Of a DNA stretch of 64,000 nt, positions 9,791 to 47,600 are shown piece after piece. The number at the start of each line of letters is the position of its first letter. Position 1 is the stretch's first letter. The notes beneath the pieces are model-generated. The model searched no databases, was not told where the DNA came from, and saw nothing but the letters and a program-made list of their open reading frames with translations. Location of the stretch: assembly GCA_021776135.1 (NCBI GenBank), contig JAJFGL010000053.1:1-64000 (forward strand). The letters run 5' to 3'. This stretch comes from Kiloniellaceae bacterium. GTDB taxonomy: Bacteria > Pseudomonadota > Alphaproteobacteria > Kiloniellales > J153. The translations under genes and the position numbers were made by a program.

Positions 9791-10492
9791 TTGCAGCACA
9801 CCATCGCGCTGGTTGACGACGACCGGAACATTCTCACCTCGGTCTCCATCGCCCTGGAGGCGGAAGGTTTTAGGGTGCGGACCTACACGGACGGCGCGGA
9901 GGCCTTGCGCGGCCTTTCGGCGACCCCGGCCGATGTCGCGATCCTGGATATCAAGATGCCGCGCATGGATGGGATGGAGCTGCTTGGCCGCATCCGCAAC
10001 TCCTCGAACATGCCGGTGATTTTCCTGACCTCGAAGGACGACGAGGTGGATGAGGTTCTGGGCTTGCGCATGGGCGCCGACGACTACATCACCAAGCCGT
10101 TTTCCCAGCGCCTTTTGATCGAACGAATCCGCGCTCTGCTGCGCCGCGAAGATGCCGCCGCCGGCGATTCAAACACCGGTTCCGGCGAAAAGCCCATGCT
10201 GCGGGGCGACCTGGTGCTCGACCCGGCGCGCCACCTCTGCACCTGGAAGGGCCAGGCGGTCAATTTGACGGTGACCGAGTTCTTGATTCTCAAGGCCCTG
10301 GCGGCGCGGCTGGGTCATGTGAAAAGCCGCGATCAGCTGATGGATTCGGCCTACGGCGAATCGATCTATGTGGACGACCGCACCATCGACAGCCACATCA
10401 AGCGCCTGCGCAAGAAATTCAAGGATATCGACAGCGGCTTCAACGAGATCGAAACCCTTTACGGTGTCGGTTATCGCTATAAGGACCGATAA
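9791..10492 (+). CDS. chvI: two-component response regulator ChvI
   Basis: A 233-residue OmpR-class regulator: receiver domain with phosphorylated Asp53 ([15 protein letters not shown]) and acidic pair DDD at 9-11, then a winged-helix domain ending [13 protein letters not shown] and [11 protein letters not shown]. Together with the next gene it forms the ChvG-ChvI system, which in alphaproteobacteria responds to acid and envelope stress. The start is TTG at 9791, preceded by a good ribosome site (AGGAGGG). The chvI-chvG-hprK-PTS gene order supports the assignment. Confidence 0.9.
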
Positions 10493-12089
10493 CGGGAAAC
10501 GAAGGGCGCCGCGGGCCGCCGGGGCGCGGCGCGGGCTCCGTTCGCCGCTGATCCGGCGGATATTACTTCTCAATGTCCTGGTTCTCGCGATCCCCGTCTT
10601 TGGGCTGTTGCACCTCGACCAATACCGTCATTCGCTGATCGCCTCCGAGCTCGACAGCCTGCGTATTCAGGCGCGGACCTTCGCCTTGACCCTGGGCAGC
10701 GCCGCCGTGGTCGGCACCCCGCGCGGCGAGGAACGCCTGATGGCGGAGACGGCGCGCCACTTGATGCGCGTCCTGCTTTACGATACCGGCGTGCGGGCGC
10801 GTATATTCGATCGCGGCGGCGCGCTTGTGGCCGATAGTTTCGTCCTGATCGGGCCCGGCGGTTTGGTTCAGGTGGTGGAGCTTCCGGCGGCCGGCGAAAG
10901 CCGTTTGCTCGCGGTCCTGGAGCGCTGGTACGACAAGCTCTCGGCCTGGCTGCCGTCAAACGGCGAACTTCCTCTCTACACGGAATCCTTGACCCAAAGC
11001 GCGGCCGATTACGAAGAGGTCCAGCGGGCCCTGTTCGGCGAGGCGCTCGGCGCGGCGCGGGTCGACCGCCGGGGCCGCCTGGTCCTTTCCGTCGCGGTGC
11101 CGGTTCAACGTTACCGCCAAGTGCTGGGGGCGCTCATGGCCTCCAAGGGCGGGGCCGAGATCGACGCCGCCGTGAGCGCCCGGCGCTTGGATATCCTGCT
11201 GGTCTTCGCCATCGCCCTGGCGGTGACGGTGCTGCTGTCTTTGTATCTGGCCGGTACCATCGCCCGGCCGATCCGGCGCTTGGCCCTGGCCGCCGATCAG
11301 GTGCGCCACGGTCAGGGCCGCCAGCATGAAATTCCCGATTTTTCCAAGCGGGGCGACGAGATCGGCGATCTTTCCGCGTCCCTGCGCGACATGACCACCG
11401 CCCTATGGGCCCGGCTCGACGCCATAGAAGGTTTCGCCGCCGATGTCGCCCATGAAATCAAGAACCCCCTGACCTCCTTGCGCAGCGCGGTTGAAACCGT
11501 GGTCCGGGTCGAGGATTCGGAACAGCAAAAACGCCTGATGTCGATCATCCTCGACGACGTGCAGCGCCTGGACCGCCTGATTAGCGATATATCCGGGGCG
11601 TCGCGCCTCGACGCCGAATTGTCGCGGGCAGAAAGCGCGCCCGTGGACATCGCCCATTTGCTCAAAACCCTGATCGAGGCCTACGAGGCCACGGCGCCGG
11701 CCGGGGGCCCGCGTTTCCGCTTGGACCTGCATTCCGGCCAGGACTTGACGGTTCTGGGCATGGAAGACCGGCTAGGCCAGGTGTTGCGCAATCTCTTGAG
11801 CAATGCGATTACCTTTTCACCGCCCGGTGGCGAGATCGTGCTGTCCGGCCGCCGCGACGGAACCTGGGTGGTCATGACGGTTACGGATCGGGGGCCGGGG
11901 ATTCCCGAAACCAAGCTCGAGGCGGTTTTCGACCGCTTCTATACCGAACGGCCCAGGGACGAGAAATTCGGCACCCATTCGGGGCTGGGCTTGAGCATCT
12001 CGAAACAGATCGTCGAGGCCCACGGCGGCACCATCGCGGCGTCGAACCGGGACGGTGCGGTATTTACCATTCGCTTACCGGCGGCGTAA
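10464..12089 (+). CDS. chvG: sensor histidine kinase ChvG
   Basis: The partner kinase of ChvI. It has an N-terminal membrane helix ([19 protein letters not shown]), a periplasmic domain of about 200 residues, a second helix ([20 protein letters not shown]), a HAMP linker, the phospho-acceptor box [20 protein letters not shown], and ATPase motifs [23 protein letters not shown] and [17 protein letters not shown]. The start is uncertain. No ATG precedes the first helix after the chvI stop; the GTG at 10464 overlaps chvI by 29 bases and gives 541 residues. The frame lies open throughout, so coupled translation is likely. Confidence 0.85.
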
Positions 12090-12105: not shown

Positions 12106-13464
12106 ATGGAAGCACAGACAATTCATGCGACCTGTGTGGTGCTCGATGGGGCCTCGGGCCCCTGCGGCGTTCTGTTGCGCGGCCCTTCGGGGGCCGGCAA
12201 GTCCGATCTGGCGCTGCGCCTGATCGATCAGGGCGCCCGCCTGGTCGCGGACGATCGATGCGACCTCAGCCTGGACCGCGCGGCGCCAAGCGCCGGTCCC
12301 CGGGTGATGGCGCGCGCGCCGGCCGCCCTGGCCGGGCGCATGGAGGCTCGTGGTTTGGGTATTGTCGAGGCGCCACGCGCGGCCGAGGCGCCGGTGGTCT
12401 TGATCGTCGATCTGGTGTCCGGCGAGGCGATTGAGCGCCTGCCGGAACCCGCCCGCGAGGATCTGCTGGGCGTAAGCCTGCCGTGCCTGGCCCTCGATCC
12501 CTTCGAGGTTTCGGCGCCGGCCAAGCTGCGTCTGGCCCTGCGGTTCTTGGTGGCGAAGCCGGGCGGCGGGGATAATGCCGCGGTCAAGCGCCGGCGCGTG
12601 GTTCTGGTCACGGGCATGTCCGGCGCCGGGCATTCGACGGCCCTGAAGGTACTCGAAGACGCCGGCTACGAATCCATCGACAACCTGCCGCTCAACCTGC
12701 TCGACGCGGTTTTGTTCGAACCCGATACGCCCCGGCCCTTGGCGGTTGGCGTGGATACCCGGACCCGCCGTTTTACCGCCGAGGCCGTGGTCGAGCGCCT
12801 GCGCGATCTTTCCACCCAAACCGGCTTGGCGGTAACCCTGGTGTTTCTCGATTGCCGGGACGACGTTCTGGCGCGCCGCTTCACGGAAACCCGCCGCCGC
12901 CATCCCCTGGCCCGCGACCGCCCCGTGGCCGACGGCATCGCGGCCGAACGCCGGCTGATCGCCCCGCTCAAGACCCATGCCGATTTGATGCTCGATACCT
13001 CGGAATATTCTCCCGGTGAGTTGGGGCGGGTTCTCACCGGGAATCTCGGCCTGGGGGCGGAGGGGGCCATGGCGGTCTTCGTGACCTCGTTTTCCTACCG
13101 CCACGGCTTACCGCGCGAGGCCGATCTGGTTTTCGACGTGCGGTTCCTAGCCAATCCCCACTACGACCCGGCCCTGCGGCCCCTCGACGGGCGCGATTCC
13201 AAGGTCGCCGCCTATATCGAAAAAGACCCGGAATTCGCCCATTTCATAGCCCGTCTGACCGGTATTCTGGCGCCTTTACTGCCGCGTTATGTGCGCGAGG
13301 GGAAGAGCTATTTGACCATTGCGCTCGGTTGTACCGGCGGCCGCCACCGCTCGGTCCTGGTCGCGGAGCGCCTGGGCGCCTGGTTCCGGGACCAGGGCTG
13401 GCCGGTGGAGACGAGCCACCGCGATCTCGCCGCCGGGGGTGATTCGCGTGCCGATTTGGGGTAA
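12106..13464 (+). CDS. hprK-rapZ: fused HPr kinase/phosphorylase - RapZ nucleotide-binding protein
   Basis: One open frame of 452 residues joins two proteins normally encoded by neighbouring genes. Residues 1 to about 155 are the short alphaproteobacterial HPr kinase: P-loop GPSGAGKSDLALRLI at 26-40, then LVADDRCDL and the GRMEARGLGI signature. After a linker of about 10 residues (AKPGGGDNAAVK) the RapZ/YvcJ protein follows from about 168: GMSGAGHSTALKVLEDAGYE, LDCRDDVLARRFTETRRRHP, FVTSFSYRHGLPREADLVFD and GCTGGRHRSV. HprK phosphorylates HPr on serine; RapZ binds nucleotides and, in enterobacteria, guides RNase E to a small RNA. His176 replaces the usual P-loop lysine in the RapZ half. The start is ATG at 12106. 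A lost stop codon or sequencing frameshift must be excluded. Confidence 0.82.
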   Translation: MEAQTIHATCVVLDGASGPCGVLLRGPSGAGKSDLALRLIDQGARLVADDRCDLSLDRAAPSAGPRVMARAPAALAGRMEARGLGIVEAPRAAEAPVVLIVDLVSGEAIERLPEPAREDLLGVSLPCLALDPFEVSAPAKLRLALRFLVAKPGGGDNAAVKRRRVVLVTGMSGAGHSTALKVLEDAGYESIDNLPLNLLDAVLFEPDTPRPLAVGVDTRTRRFTAEAVVERLRDLSTQTGLAVTLVFLDCRDDVLARRFTETRRRHPLARDRPVADGIAAERRLIAPLKTHADLMLDTSEYSPGELGRVLTGNLGLGAEGAMAVFVTSFSYRHGLPREADLVFDVRFLANPHYDPALRPLDGRDSKVAAYIEKDPEFAHFIARLTGILAPLLPRYVREGKSYLTIALGCTGGRHRSVLVAERLGAWFRDQGWPVETSHRDLAAGGDSRADLG

Positions 13465-13497: not shown

Positions 13498-13902
13498 ATG
13501 ATCGGAATGGTGCTGGTCACCCACGGACGGCTCGCCTTGGAATTCGCGGCAGCGCTGGAACATGTGGTGGGGCCGCAGAAGAATATCGCCACCGTTTGCA
13601 TCGGTCCCGACGACGATATGGAGCAGCGCCGCCGCGAGATTATCGAGAGCGTGGAGAGCGCGGACGATGGCCGGGGGGTCGTGCTCTTGACCGATATGTT
13701 CGGGGGCACCCCCTCCAATCTGGCCATATCCGTGCTCGACCAGGGCCGGGTCGAGGTCATCGCCGGGGTCAATCTGCCCATGCTCATCAAGCTGGCCAGC
13801 CTGCGCGAGAGCGAGACTCTAGCCTCCGCCGTGGCTCAGGCGCAGGAGGCGGGCCGTAAATATATCAATGTCGCGTCGCAGTTACTGGCCGGCAAGACCT
13901 GA
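13498..13902 (+). CDS. PTS EIIA domain, mannose/fructose type
   Basis: A 134-residue EIIA(Man)-type protein. The phospho-accepting His9 is in MVLVTHGRLALEF, and DMFGGTPSNLA is the other family signature. No EIIB, EIIC or EIID gene is near, so it probably acts as a regulatory output of the PTS rather than in sugar uptake. It lies 33 bases after hprK-rapZ and 14 bases before HPr, in one operon. Confidence 0.9.
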   Translation: MIGMVLVTHGRLALEFAAALEHVVGPQKNIATVCIGPDDDMEQRRREIIESVESADDGRGVVLLTDMFGGTPSNLAISVLDQGRVEVIAGVNLPMLIKLASLRESETLASAVAQAQEAGRKYINVASQLLAGKT

Positions 13903-13916
13903 AGGCAAGGGAGACC

Positions 13917-14192
13917 ATGTCCGCCACGGCTACGATCCGCGCGACCATTAGCAACCGGCGGGGGTTGCATGCCCGGGCGGCGGCGAAATTCGTGAAACTG
14001 GCCGGCACCTTCGACGCGGAGATCACGGTACGGGCCAATGGCACCGAGGTGCCCGGCTTGTCGATCATGGGACTGATGATGCTCGCTGCCGCGAATGGCT
14101 GCGAAGTGTTGCTGTCCGCCCAAGGCCCGGATGCCCGCGCCGCCGTCGAAGCCCTGGCGGTGCTGGTTGGAAAGAAATTCGATGAAGACTGA
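13917..14192 (+). CDS. ptsH: HPr phosphocarrier protein
   Basis: A 91-residue HPr. The Enzyme I-phosphorylated His18 is in NRRGLHARAAAKFVK, and the regulatory serine region is GLSIMGLMMLAAANG (Ser49), the target expected for the HPr kinase encoded upstream. Both sites are present, so the protein could be controlled by histidine and serine phosphorylation. It overlaps the Enzyme I gene by 11 bases. Confidence 0.93.
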   Translation: MSATATIRATISNRRGLHARAAAKFVKLAGTFDAEITVRANGTEVPGLSIMGLMMLAAANGCEVLLSAQGPDARAAVEALAVLVGKKFDED

Positions 14193-16041
14193 AAAGCCCG
14201 GCAAAAAGACCAAGCGCGCGAAGACCAAGGCCCCAGCGGCCACGCCGCGCGGACAACCGGCGGCCACGCCGCGCGGACAACCGCCGCCGCCGCGCGGGCA
14301 AGATGTCTTCGAAGGCCTTGGCGTTTCCCCGGGAATCGCGATCGGCCCCGCCCATCTGCGCGACGGCGGCGACGTACAGGTGATCGAGCGCCGGATCGCC
14401 AAGCGCGAGGCCGAGGGCGAACTGAAACGCTTCCGGGACGCGATCGCGCAATCCTTGCGCCAGGTCGCCAAGCTCAAGAACAAGGCCAAGACATTTCATG
14501 GCACGGCGGCGGAAGAATTGGGCTATCTCCTGGACGCCCACGCCCACATGCTCAAGAGCCGCAGCCTGGTCGGCGGTATCGAGAAAAACATCCAAGAACG
14601 GCTGTGCAACGCCGAAGCGGCGGTCATGGACGAGATCGGCGGTATCGCCCGGAATTTCGCCGAAATGGACGATGCCTACCTGCGCTTGCGCGGCCAAGAA
14701 GTGCGCGAGGTTGGCCTGCGGATCGTGCGCAATCTAACCAAGGCCTCGTTCAGCAGCTTCGACCGCCTGGATCCGGGCAGCATTGTTATCGCGGAAGAGG
14801 TTACCCCGGCCGACACGGCGCTCATGGACCCGCGCATCGTCGGCGGCTTCGCCTGCGCCATCGGCGGCGCGGAGGGGCACACCGCGATCATGGCCCGCTC
14901 CCTCGGCCTGCCGGCGGTTCTGGGTGTTGGCGCTTTAATCGGCGGCGTGCGTAACGGCGATATCGTCATTATCGACGGCTCCAACGGCGTCGTCGTGATC
15001 AATCCCACCGCCGCTTGCCGGAGCGGTTACGAACGCCGGCGCAAGGTCCTGGCGCGCGAGACCCAGGCCTTGAGCCGCTTGCGCAACGTCGAACCGGTCA
15101 CCCGCGACGGCATCCGCGTTACCTTACAGGCCAACCTGGAATTGCCGCGCGAAATCGGCCAGGCGGTGGCGGCCGGGGCGGAGGGAATCGGCCTTCTGCG
15201 CACCGAATTCCTGTTCATGAATCGCGACGACCTGCCGGGCGAGGACGAGCAGACCGCGGCGCTCAGCGAGATTATCGAGGCCATGCCAGGGCGTCCGGTG
15301 ACTGTGCGCACCCTGGATATCGGCGGCGAGAAGCTGACCTCGTCCCTGGGCGCGCATTTCACCGAAACCTCGAACCCGGCCCTGGGCTTGCGCGCCATAC
15401 GCCTGTCCCTGAAGGAGCCCAAGCTGCTGGAAACCCAGCTTGCCGCCATGCTGCGGGCCGGCGCCAAGGGCAATCTGCGCATTCTCCTGCCCATGATCTC
15501 GGCCGTCGCGGAGGTCAAGGAAGTCCGTAAGATACTGGCCAAGGTCGCGGCCCGGCTAAAGCGCCGGGGCGTGCGGATCGCCGACCCCTTGCCGCCGCTG
15601 GGCGTTATGATCGAGATTCCGGGCGCCGCGCTGACCGCCGACGCCCTGGCCCAGGCGGCGGATTTTTTCGCCATCGGCAGTAACGATCTGACCATGTACA
15701 CCCTGGCGATCGACCGCGGCGAGGAAAGCGTGGCCCATCTCTATAATCCATTGCATCCCAGCGTCCTCAGGCTCATGCAATTCGCCATAGAGGCGGCGCT
15801 GCGGGCGCGCATCCCGGTTTCCATCTGCGGCGAGATCGCAGGCGACGTACGTTTCACGGCCTTGAACCTGGGCCTCGGCGTGCGCGAATTGTCCATGGGC
15901 GCCAATGCCTTGCCGCGTATTAAAAGCCGGATTCTGAACCTGGACATGCAAGCCGCGACCCAGCGCGCGCAGATGATAATGGATCAACACGATACCGGCA
16001 GAATCGCGGCCCTGCTCGACGATTTCAACGATGTTAGCTAG
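14182..16041 (+). CDS. ptsI: phosphoenolpyruvate-protein phosphotransferase (Enzyme I)
   Basis: A 619-residue Enzyme I that moves phosphate from PEP to HPr. The active His233 is in GGAEGHTAIMARSLGLPAVL; PEP-binding motifs LLRTEFLFMNR, VRTLDIGGEK, the catalytic-Cys block VSICGEIAGD and FFAIGSNDLTMYTLAIDR are intact. There is no GAF domain, so it is the classical form and not the GAF-containing PtsP of the nitrogen PTS. The first 45 residues are an unusual Lys/Pro-rich tail with a duplicated AATPRGQP unit; homology begins at FEGLGVSPGIAIGPA. The ATG at 14182 overlaps ptsH. Confidence 0.92.
   Translation: MKTEKPGKKTKRAKTKAPAATPRGQPAATPRGQPPPPRGQDVFEGLGVSPGIAIGPAHLRDGGDVQVIERRIAKREAEGELKRFRDAIAQSLRQVAKLKNKAKTFHGTAAEELGYLLDAHAHMLKSRSLVGGIEKNIQERLCNAEAAVMDEIGGIARNFAEMDDAYLRLRGQEVREVGLRIVRNLTKASFSSFDRLDPGSIVIAEEVTPADTALMDPRIVGGFACAIGGAEGHTAIMARSLGLPAVLGVGALIGGVRNGDIVIIDGSNGVVVINPTAACRSGYERRRKVLARETQALSRLRNVEPVTRDGIRVTLQANLELPREIGQAVAAGAEGIGLLRTEFLFMNRDDLPGEDEQTAALSEIIEAMPGRPVTVRTLDIGGEKLTSSLGAHFTETSNPALGLRAIRLSLKEPKLLETQLAAMLRAGAKGNLRILLPMISAVAEVKEVRKILAKVAARLKRRGVRIADPLPPLGVMIEIPGAALTADALAQAADFFAIGSNDLTMYTLAIDRGEESVAHLYNPLHPSVLRLMQFAIEAALRARIPVSICGEIAGDVRFTALNLGLGVRELSMGANALPRIKSRILNLDMQAATQRAQMIMDQHDTGRIAALLDDFNDVS
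14236..14283 (+). repeat. 24-bp in-frame tandem duplication in ptsI
   Basis: Two identical copies (14236-14259 and 14260-14283) encode AATPRGQP twice, residues 19-34 of Enzyme I, followed by a degenerate third copy (PPPRGQ). The unit lies in the disordered N-terminal tail, ahead of the conserved domain. Confidence 0.9.
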
Positions 16042-47135: not shown

Positions 47136-47600
47136 CTAAGCCGCGTGGCTGGTGGCCGATTCGCTGATCAAGGCGTGGATCGCCTCGGCGCTATCGGCGC
47201 CGCGCAATTTCTCGCAAACGGCGCCGTCGCGCAGCAGGCGCGACACCCGGGCCAGGGCTTTCAAATGATCCGCCCCCGCGGTCTCAGGGGCCAGCAGCAC
47301 GCAAATCAGATCGACCGGCTGTTCGTCGATGGCGTCGAAGTCGATCGGCGTTTCCAGGCGTGCGAAGAGGGCGTGGAGGCGTTCCAATTCCGGCAGCTTG
47401 CCGTGGGGTATGGCGATGCCGTGGCCAACGCCCGTGGTGCCCAGGCGCTCGCGCTCGACCAGCACGTTGAAGATTGTGCGTTCGGGCTGCCCGGTCAGGC
47501 GCGCGGCCCGCTTGGCCAGTTCCTGAAGGGCCTGCTTTTTGCCCGACACCTTCAAGTTCGCGACAATGCTCTGTGGGTTCAAAAGTTCAACAACGTCCAT
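47136..47600 (-). CDS. ptsN: nitrogen-regulatory PTS EIIA protein PtsN
   Basis: A 154-residue EIIA(Ntr). The phosphorylated His66 is in GVGHGIAIPHGKLPELERL. It is the terminal acceptor of the PTSNtr chain and controls potassium transport and other targets in proteobacteria. The donors HPr and Enzyme I are probably those at 13.9-16.0 kb. It is downstream of rpoN and hpf. Confidence 0.94.
   Translation of the reverse strand: MDVVELLNPQSIVANLKVSGKKQALQELAKRAARLTGQPERTIFNVLVERERLGTTGVGHGIAIPHGKLPELERLHALFARLETPIDFDAIDEQPVDLICVLLAPETAGADHLKALARVSRLLRDGAVCEKLRGADSAEAIHALISESATSHAA

Follow-up and report, generated by a model that had tools for sequence, protein, structure and literature searches.

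The fused gene

The window, that is, the whole stretch of 64,000 nucleotides of a Kiloniellaceae genome analysed here, carries at 12106..13464 on the forward strand a single open frame of 452 codons, which runs from the ATG at 12106 to the TAA at 13464 without internal stops and encodes an HPr kinase (HprK) followed by a RapZ protein. The start codon is preceded, about 6 nt upstream, by the sequence AAGGAAG. The HprK half takes up approximately residues 1-150, with the kinase domain, of the short alphaproteobacterial form, at residues 1-148 (12106..12549, +), where Hpr_kinase_C (PF07475) matches residues 4-89 with 55.1 bits against a gathering cut-off of 33.3. After a linker of 13-15 residues (around residues 149-163; 12550..12594, +), a complete RapZ extends over residues ~164-441, consisting of an N-terminal P-loop domain at residues 164-311 (12595..13038, +; RapZ-like_N, PF03668, at 165-310, 130 bits) and a C-terminal domain (CTD) at residues 322-441 (13069..13428, +; RapZ_C, PF22740, at 322-441, 158 bits). 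The NCBIfam RapZ equivalog NF003828 covers residues 165-441 over its entire profile (1-278 of 278), with 323.7 bits against a cut-off of 244. Frame reading and the Pfam and NCBIfam matches thus bear out the original prediction of an uninterrupted 452-codon frame with the whole short kinase and the whole RapZ. Regarding the domain limits, the predicted P-loop was found, its Walker A motif lying at residues 26-33, while RapZ begins at about residue 164 instead of 168, and the linker is longer than the 10 residues first proposed. That hprK and rapZ are joined in one protein, with Pfam and NCBIfam matches to both families and a single frame conserved across the order (Kiloniellales), is an observation that we regard as practically certain.

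The host genome is a draft of 3.96 Mb in 70 contigs, 97.9% complete. A whole-genome search found no second match to the fused protein, and neither a separate hprK nor a separate rapZ. Since the only HprK and the only RapZ of this genome are therefore parts of the same protein, the fused protein must do both jobs. The AlphaFold model shows confidently predicted domains (mean pLDDT 91.4) without a fixed orientation to each other (pTM 0.53), connected by a linker that is predicted to be disordered, with a pLDDT of around 50 for the block 151-160 and below 50 at residues 154-158.

Operon and PTS context

The fused gene is flanked by genes for a two-component system on one side and for phosphotransferase system (PTS) proteins on the other, a gene order that is kept in its fused relatives. 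The first gene of this apparent operon encodes a ChvI-like response regulator (9791..10492, +), with Response_reg and Trans_reg_C domains, and the second one a ChvG-like sensor histidine kinase (10368..12089, +), with Stimulus_sens_1, HAMP and HisKA domains; these last coordinates are the limits of the open reading frame, and the true start is probably located downstream. ChvG NF058527 is the best NCBIfam match for this protein, with 464 bits, yet it stays below its cut-off of 740. Downstream of the fused gene lie an EIIA of the mannose family (ptsM/manX-like; 13498..13902, +; PF03610), HPr (13917..14192, +; PF00381) and enzyme I (ptsI; 14095..16041, +; TIGR01417 at residues 73-641). The enzyme I domain starts at about 14311, the listed start of the frame being too early, and the segment 14190-14310, ahead of the first domain, encodes N-terminal low-complexity repeats (TPRGQPAATPRGQPPPPRGQ). 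A promoter scan found nothing.

HPr, with its His site GLHARAA and its Ser site SIMGLM, would be the likely substrate of the kinase, judging from its sequence and from the relatives. A further PTS output, EIIANtr (ptsN; PF00359, E 3e-32), is encoded at 47160..47585 on the reverse strand, approximately 34 kb away from the fused gene, and no permease of the PF02378 type was found in the genome. From the presence of both sites in HPr, the presence of EIIANtr and the failure to find a permease of this type, it follows that this PTS is probably regulatory only, as has been described for Brucella (PMC2937029). The chvIG-hprK operon of Caulobacter, in turn, responds to cell-wall stress (PMC9731502). 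The adjacent hprK-rapZ pair of Azospirillum brasilense, where both genes overlap by 4 nt, has a gene order and an operon context identical in type to those of the window; however, in this and other separate alphaproteobacterial pairs a stop codon and a separate start stand between the genes.

The HPr kinase half

The kinase half contains the Walker A motif GPSGAGKS (residues 26-33), the Asp pair D49-D50 and the signature EARGLGI (residues 80-86; E-x-R-G-x-G), all of them conserved in relatives, and K32, S33, D49 and D50 are conserved in all the aligned fused loci of the order. Foldseek matches its fold to the HprK proteins of L. casei and Coxiella. The TIGR00679 model for the bifunctional HPr kinase/phosphorylase scores 58.5 bits, below its cut-off of 240, and the PF07475 match spans positions 7-83 of the 171 in the profile, which leaves the greater part of the profile's C-terminal half without a counterpart in the protein. 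A C-terminal region important for the phosphorylase activity of the firmicute enzymes has been reported as absent from alphaproteobacteria, and in Brucella the short enzyme actively phosphorylates NPr on serine while its phosphorylase activity is next to nil (PMC2937029). The HprK of Brucella melitensis (PMC2937029) is the same truncated kinase, in which the Walker A motif, the two Asp residues and the signature region are conserved, and its gene lies in an operon of the same type, alongside those for the ChvGI/BvrRS two-component system, EIIA-man and HPr/NPr. Contrary to this free-standing protein, the kinase described here runs on at its C-terminus into RapZ.

The RapZ half

The alignment of the RapZ half to RapZ from E. 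coli (5o5o/5o5q/5o5s) covers its full length, and both domains are complete, with 38-40% identity to this RapZ/YvcJ protein of E. coli (PDB 5o5o, 8b0i). In the crystal structure of the E. coli protein, a metabolite pocket is formed by H190, T248, G249, H252 and R253 (PMC5737377); these residues correspond to H352, T410, G411, H414 and R415 of the fused protein, the proposed GlcN6P pocket, and are nearly invariant in its relatives. The CTD of E. coli RapZ binds GlcN6P by itself, and this site is reported to be conserved in diverse bacteria, while only Enterobacteriaceae have the RNA-binding part (PMC7073468). By its pocket residues, the RapZ half would be expected to bind GlcN6P or a similar sugar phosphate.

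Other features set it apart from E. coli RapZ, besides the kinase fused to its N-terminus. The basic RNA-binding tail, which in E. coli places Lys or Arg at eight of the last 19 residues (PMC5737377), is missing, and the protein ends in HRDLAAGGDSRADLG instead. Moreover, a search of its own genome for GlmZ (RF00083) gave no match, while the E. coli control was positive. Even though the RapZ fold is complete, it is thus very improbable that this half, tied to PTS status, binds RNA or serves RNase E as an adapter in the way its E. coli counterpart does, and the earlier suggestion that it may read RNA finds no support. A sensor coupling between the PTS and RapZ, which had also been suggested, would still seem plausible.

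The Walker A lysine of the RapZ P-loop (12631-12633) is replaced by His176. Within the genus the residue is His, all members of the order, fused or split, have either Arg or His, and outside the order Arg occupies this position in approximately 40% of the split loci. This makes the nucleotide binding initially attributed to RapZ doubtful, and the RapZ P-loop has probably lost its normal nucleotide use in many alphaproteobacteria, to judge from these replacements. We also considered whether the loss of the lysine was tied to the fusion, an idea that was rejected because the split members of the order, and that same fraction of split loci beyond it, have Arg as well.

The junction

Two other readings of the junction have to be weighed. 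According to the first one, an assembly or sequencing error would have removed a stop codon or shifted the frame, for which the draft state of the window's genome would leave room. However, the same structure is present in independently assembled genomes, including that of the named strain Pelagibius marinus NBU2595 and single-contig genomes such as G012. Three congeners carry the fusion (75-81% identity), and in the 40 distinct fused loci of the order the linker holds no stop in frame 0 (40/40), while stops occur in frame +1 in 23 of them and in frame +2 in 15; the codon-position GC of these linkers (0.77/0.64/0.80) keeps a coding pattern. A junction that is open in the congeners and in 40 loci of the order excludes a local sequencing error, so that the lost stop or frameshift, whose verification had been proposed from the start, was ruled out and its probability is practically nil. 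The proposed comparison with close relatives also agreed with a genuine fusion, as an intervening stop is absent in the genus and in the family and appears only farther away.

According to the second reading, one frame would give two products, with an internal start in the linker yielding free RapZ beside the fusion. An ATG or GTG with a fair Shine-Dalgarno match is indeed kept in the linker of several fused loci (e.g., L138, L139, L141 and L122). In the window, on the other hand, the only in-frame candidates are two weak GTGs with an anti-SD energy of -2.4 kcal/mol, against -4.9 kcal/mol for the gene's own start, which agrees with the initial remark that there is no obvious ribosome site before RapZ: there is no strong one. 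Furthermore, at least seven fused loci (L002, L094, L095, L100, L106, L110 and L118) have no in-frame ATG, GTG or TTG in the linker, which makes re-initiation there an unlikely source of RapZ, at least in those loci. We consider this dual output improbable overall.

Distribution within the order

The fusion is not an oddity of one genome, as it might have seemed from the window, but a real, covalent and order-wide trait. Six relatives within the family have an intact locus, and each of them reads as one frame. Among the 61 genomes of the order that were searched, whose junctions were classified by direct reading of the DNA, 42 are fused, 18 split and one incomplete (42/60 of the classifiable ones fused); by genera, these figures are 22, five and one (22/27 classifiable genera fused), with fused members in all 8 families. 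Kiloniellaceae and Pelagibius are named members of this fused order. In L128 and L144 the contig ends before any stop, with the frame open through the junction. Linker length ranges from 14 to 67 residues over the 40 distinct fused loci. In the gene tree, one fusion plus four fissions (five changes) and up to six fusions (gains only) both fit within the order; L165, which falls within the order's clade via a very long branch, was treated as misplaced. The trait has either persisted throughout the 8 families, with occasional re-splitting, or, about equally parsimoniously, arisen in a few parallel fusions. Presumably, the split genes of the other 18 of the 60 genomes work too.

Among the split members, those of genus f6g18 (L119-L121) show the hprK stop TGA followed directly by an open rapZ frame, as in the junction of L120, GGCGGTTGAGGCGTGCAG. 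The likely rapZ start is a GTG three bases past the TGA (SD score -7.1), and there is no ATG before the RapZ domain. Judging from the sequence, such a junction could have arisen by re-splitting through a single stop, or it may represent a minimal coupling.

Distribution outside the order

In a sample of 40 loci from the rest of the class, which included those with the longest RapZ frames, HprK lies directly upstream in 38, and the two genes are split in all 38 of these. Among the GTDB loci from a protein scan holding both parts, 10 are fused and 58 split; nine of the 10 fused loci match genomes of the order. In Pseudomonadota outside the class, long-frame candidates were fetched, and their upstream frames contained no in-frame HprK.

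The tenth fused GTDB locus, L027 (SHVR01000001.1), comes from a Lake Baikal MAG. The gene tree places it outside the order, and a topology constrained to include it is weakly rejected (AU p = 0.044). These two results make a second origin probable, though not proven, and L027 probably represents an independent second fusion. Its RapZ Walker A lysine is apparently kept.

Regarding the replicons, the hprK-rapZ-PTS operon of Azospirillum (L090 and others) lies on large secondary replicons of 0.75-1.9 Mb recorded as plasmids, and the hprK-rapZ genes of Sphingomonas (L091) and Paracoccus are also found on records of plasmid-type secondary replicons.

Possible function of the fusion

The two components were already known, as were their adjacency and the operon, and what is new is their covalent joining as an order-wide trait; searches of open-access papers turned up no description of a protein that fuses HprK to RapZ. 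The adjacency of hprK and rapZ throughout the class, the order-wide fusion and the probable second fusion together provide gene-fusion evidence that HprK and RapZ act together. This evidence matters mainly for RapZ outside enterobacteria, which would work with HprK there, and the fusion supplies one purifiable protein for testing the cooperation between both partners. Work in E. coli suggests that metabolite-driven signalling predates RNA binding in RapZ (PMC7073468).

As an overall explanation we favour, as somewhat probable, a conserved fusion that forms a two-module regulator. The ancestral operon neighbours hprK and rapZ became one gene in this alphaproteobacterial order. The N-terminal short kinase would phosphorylate the serine of the SIMGLM site of HPr, encoded two genes downstream, and so throttle a PTS of purely regulatory role, while the C-terminal RapZ module would use the conserved CTD pocket to sense GlcN6P, or some similar sugar phosphate, as a precursor of the envelope. 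The flexible tether would fix the stoichiometry between sensor and kinase at 1:1, the self-association of RapZ may force a particular oligomer on the kinase, and the supply of precursor would modulate HPr-Ser phosphorylation or the access to HPr-Ser; a function as RNase adapter would not be expected of the fused protein. That the tethered RapZ acts as a metabolite sensor influencing HPr-Ser phosphorylation is a tentative proposal, which we consider less likely than not. The more specific version, a single-chain metabolic switch whose RapZ module, on binding GlcN6P or another envelope precursor related to it, would gate the phosphorylation of HPr on serine, is speculative and, on the whole, unlikely. 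If true, such gating would link the supply of cell-wall precursors directly to PTS signalling and reveal a role of RapZ for bacteria without GlmY/GlmZ.

Since AlphaFold gives no fixed orientation of the domains, the fusion need not mean allosteric coupling. The stop between two translationally linked genes may simply have been lost in an ancestor, the joined protein being tolerated and its domains working independently, as in the split relatives. The general adjacency of hprK and rapZ in the class, the disordered linkers of variable length and the five split genera, which would fit an easy loss or gain, make this passive fusion a serious alternative, quite possible even if we place it somewhat below an even chance. 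However, the retention of the fusion in 22 of 27 genera and 8 families, together with the probable second fusion in L027, suggests that the joined protein is, at a minimum, compatible with function and perhaps favoured by it.
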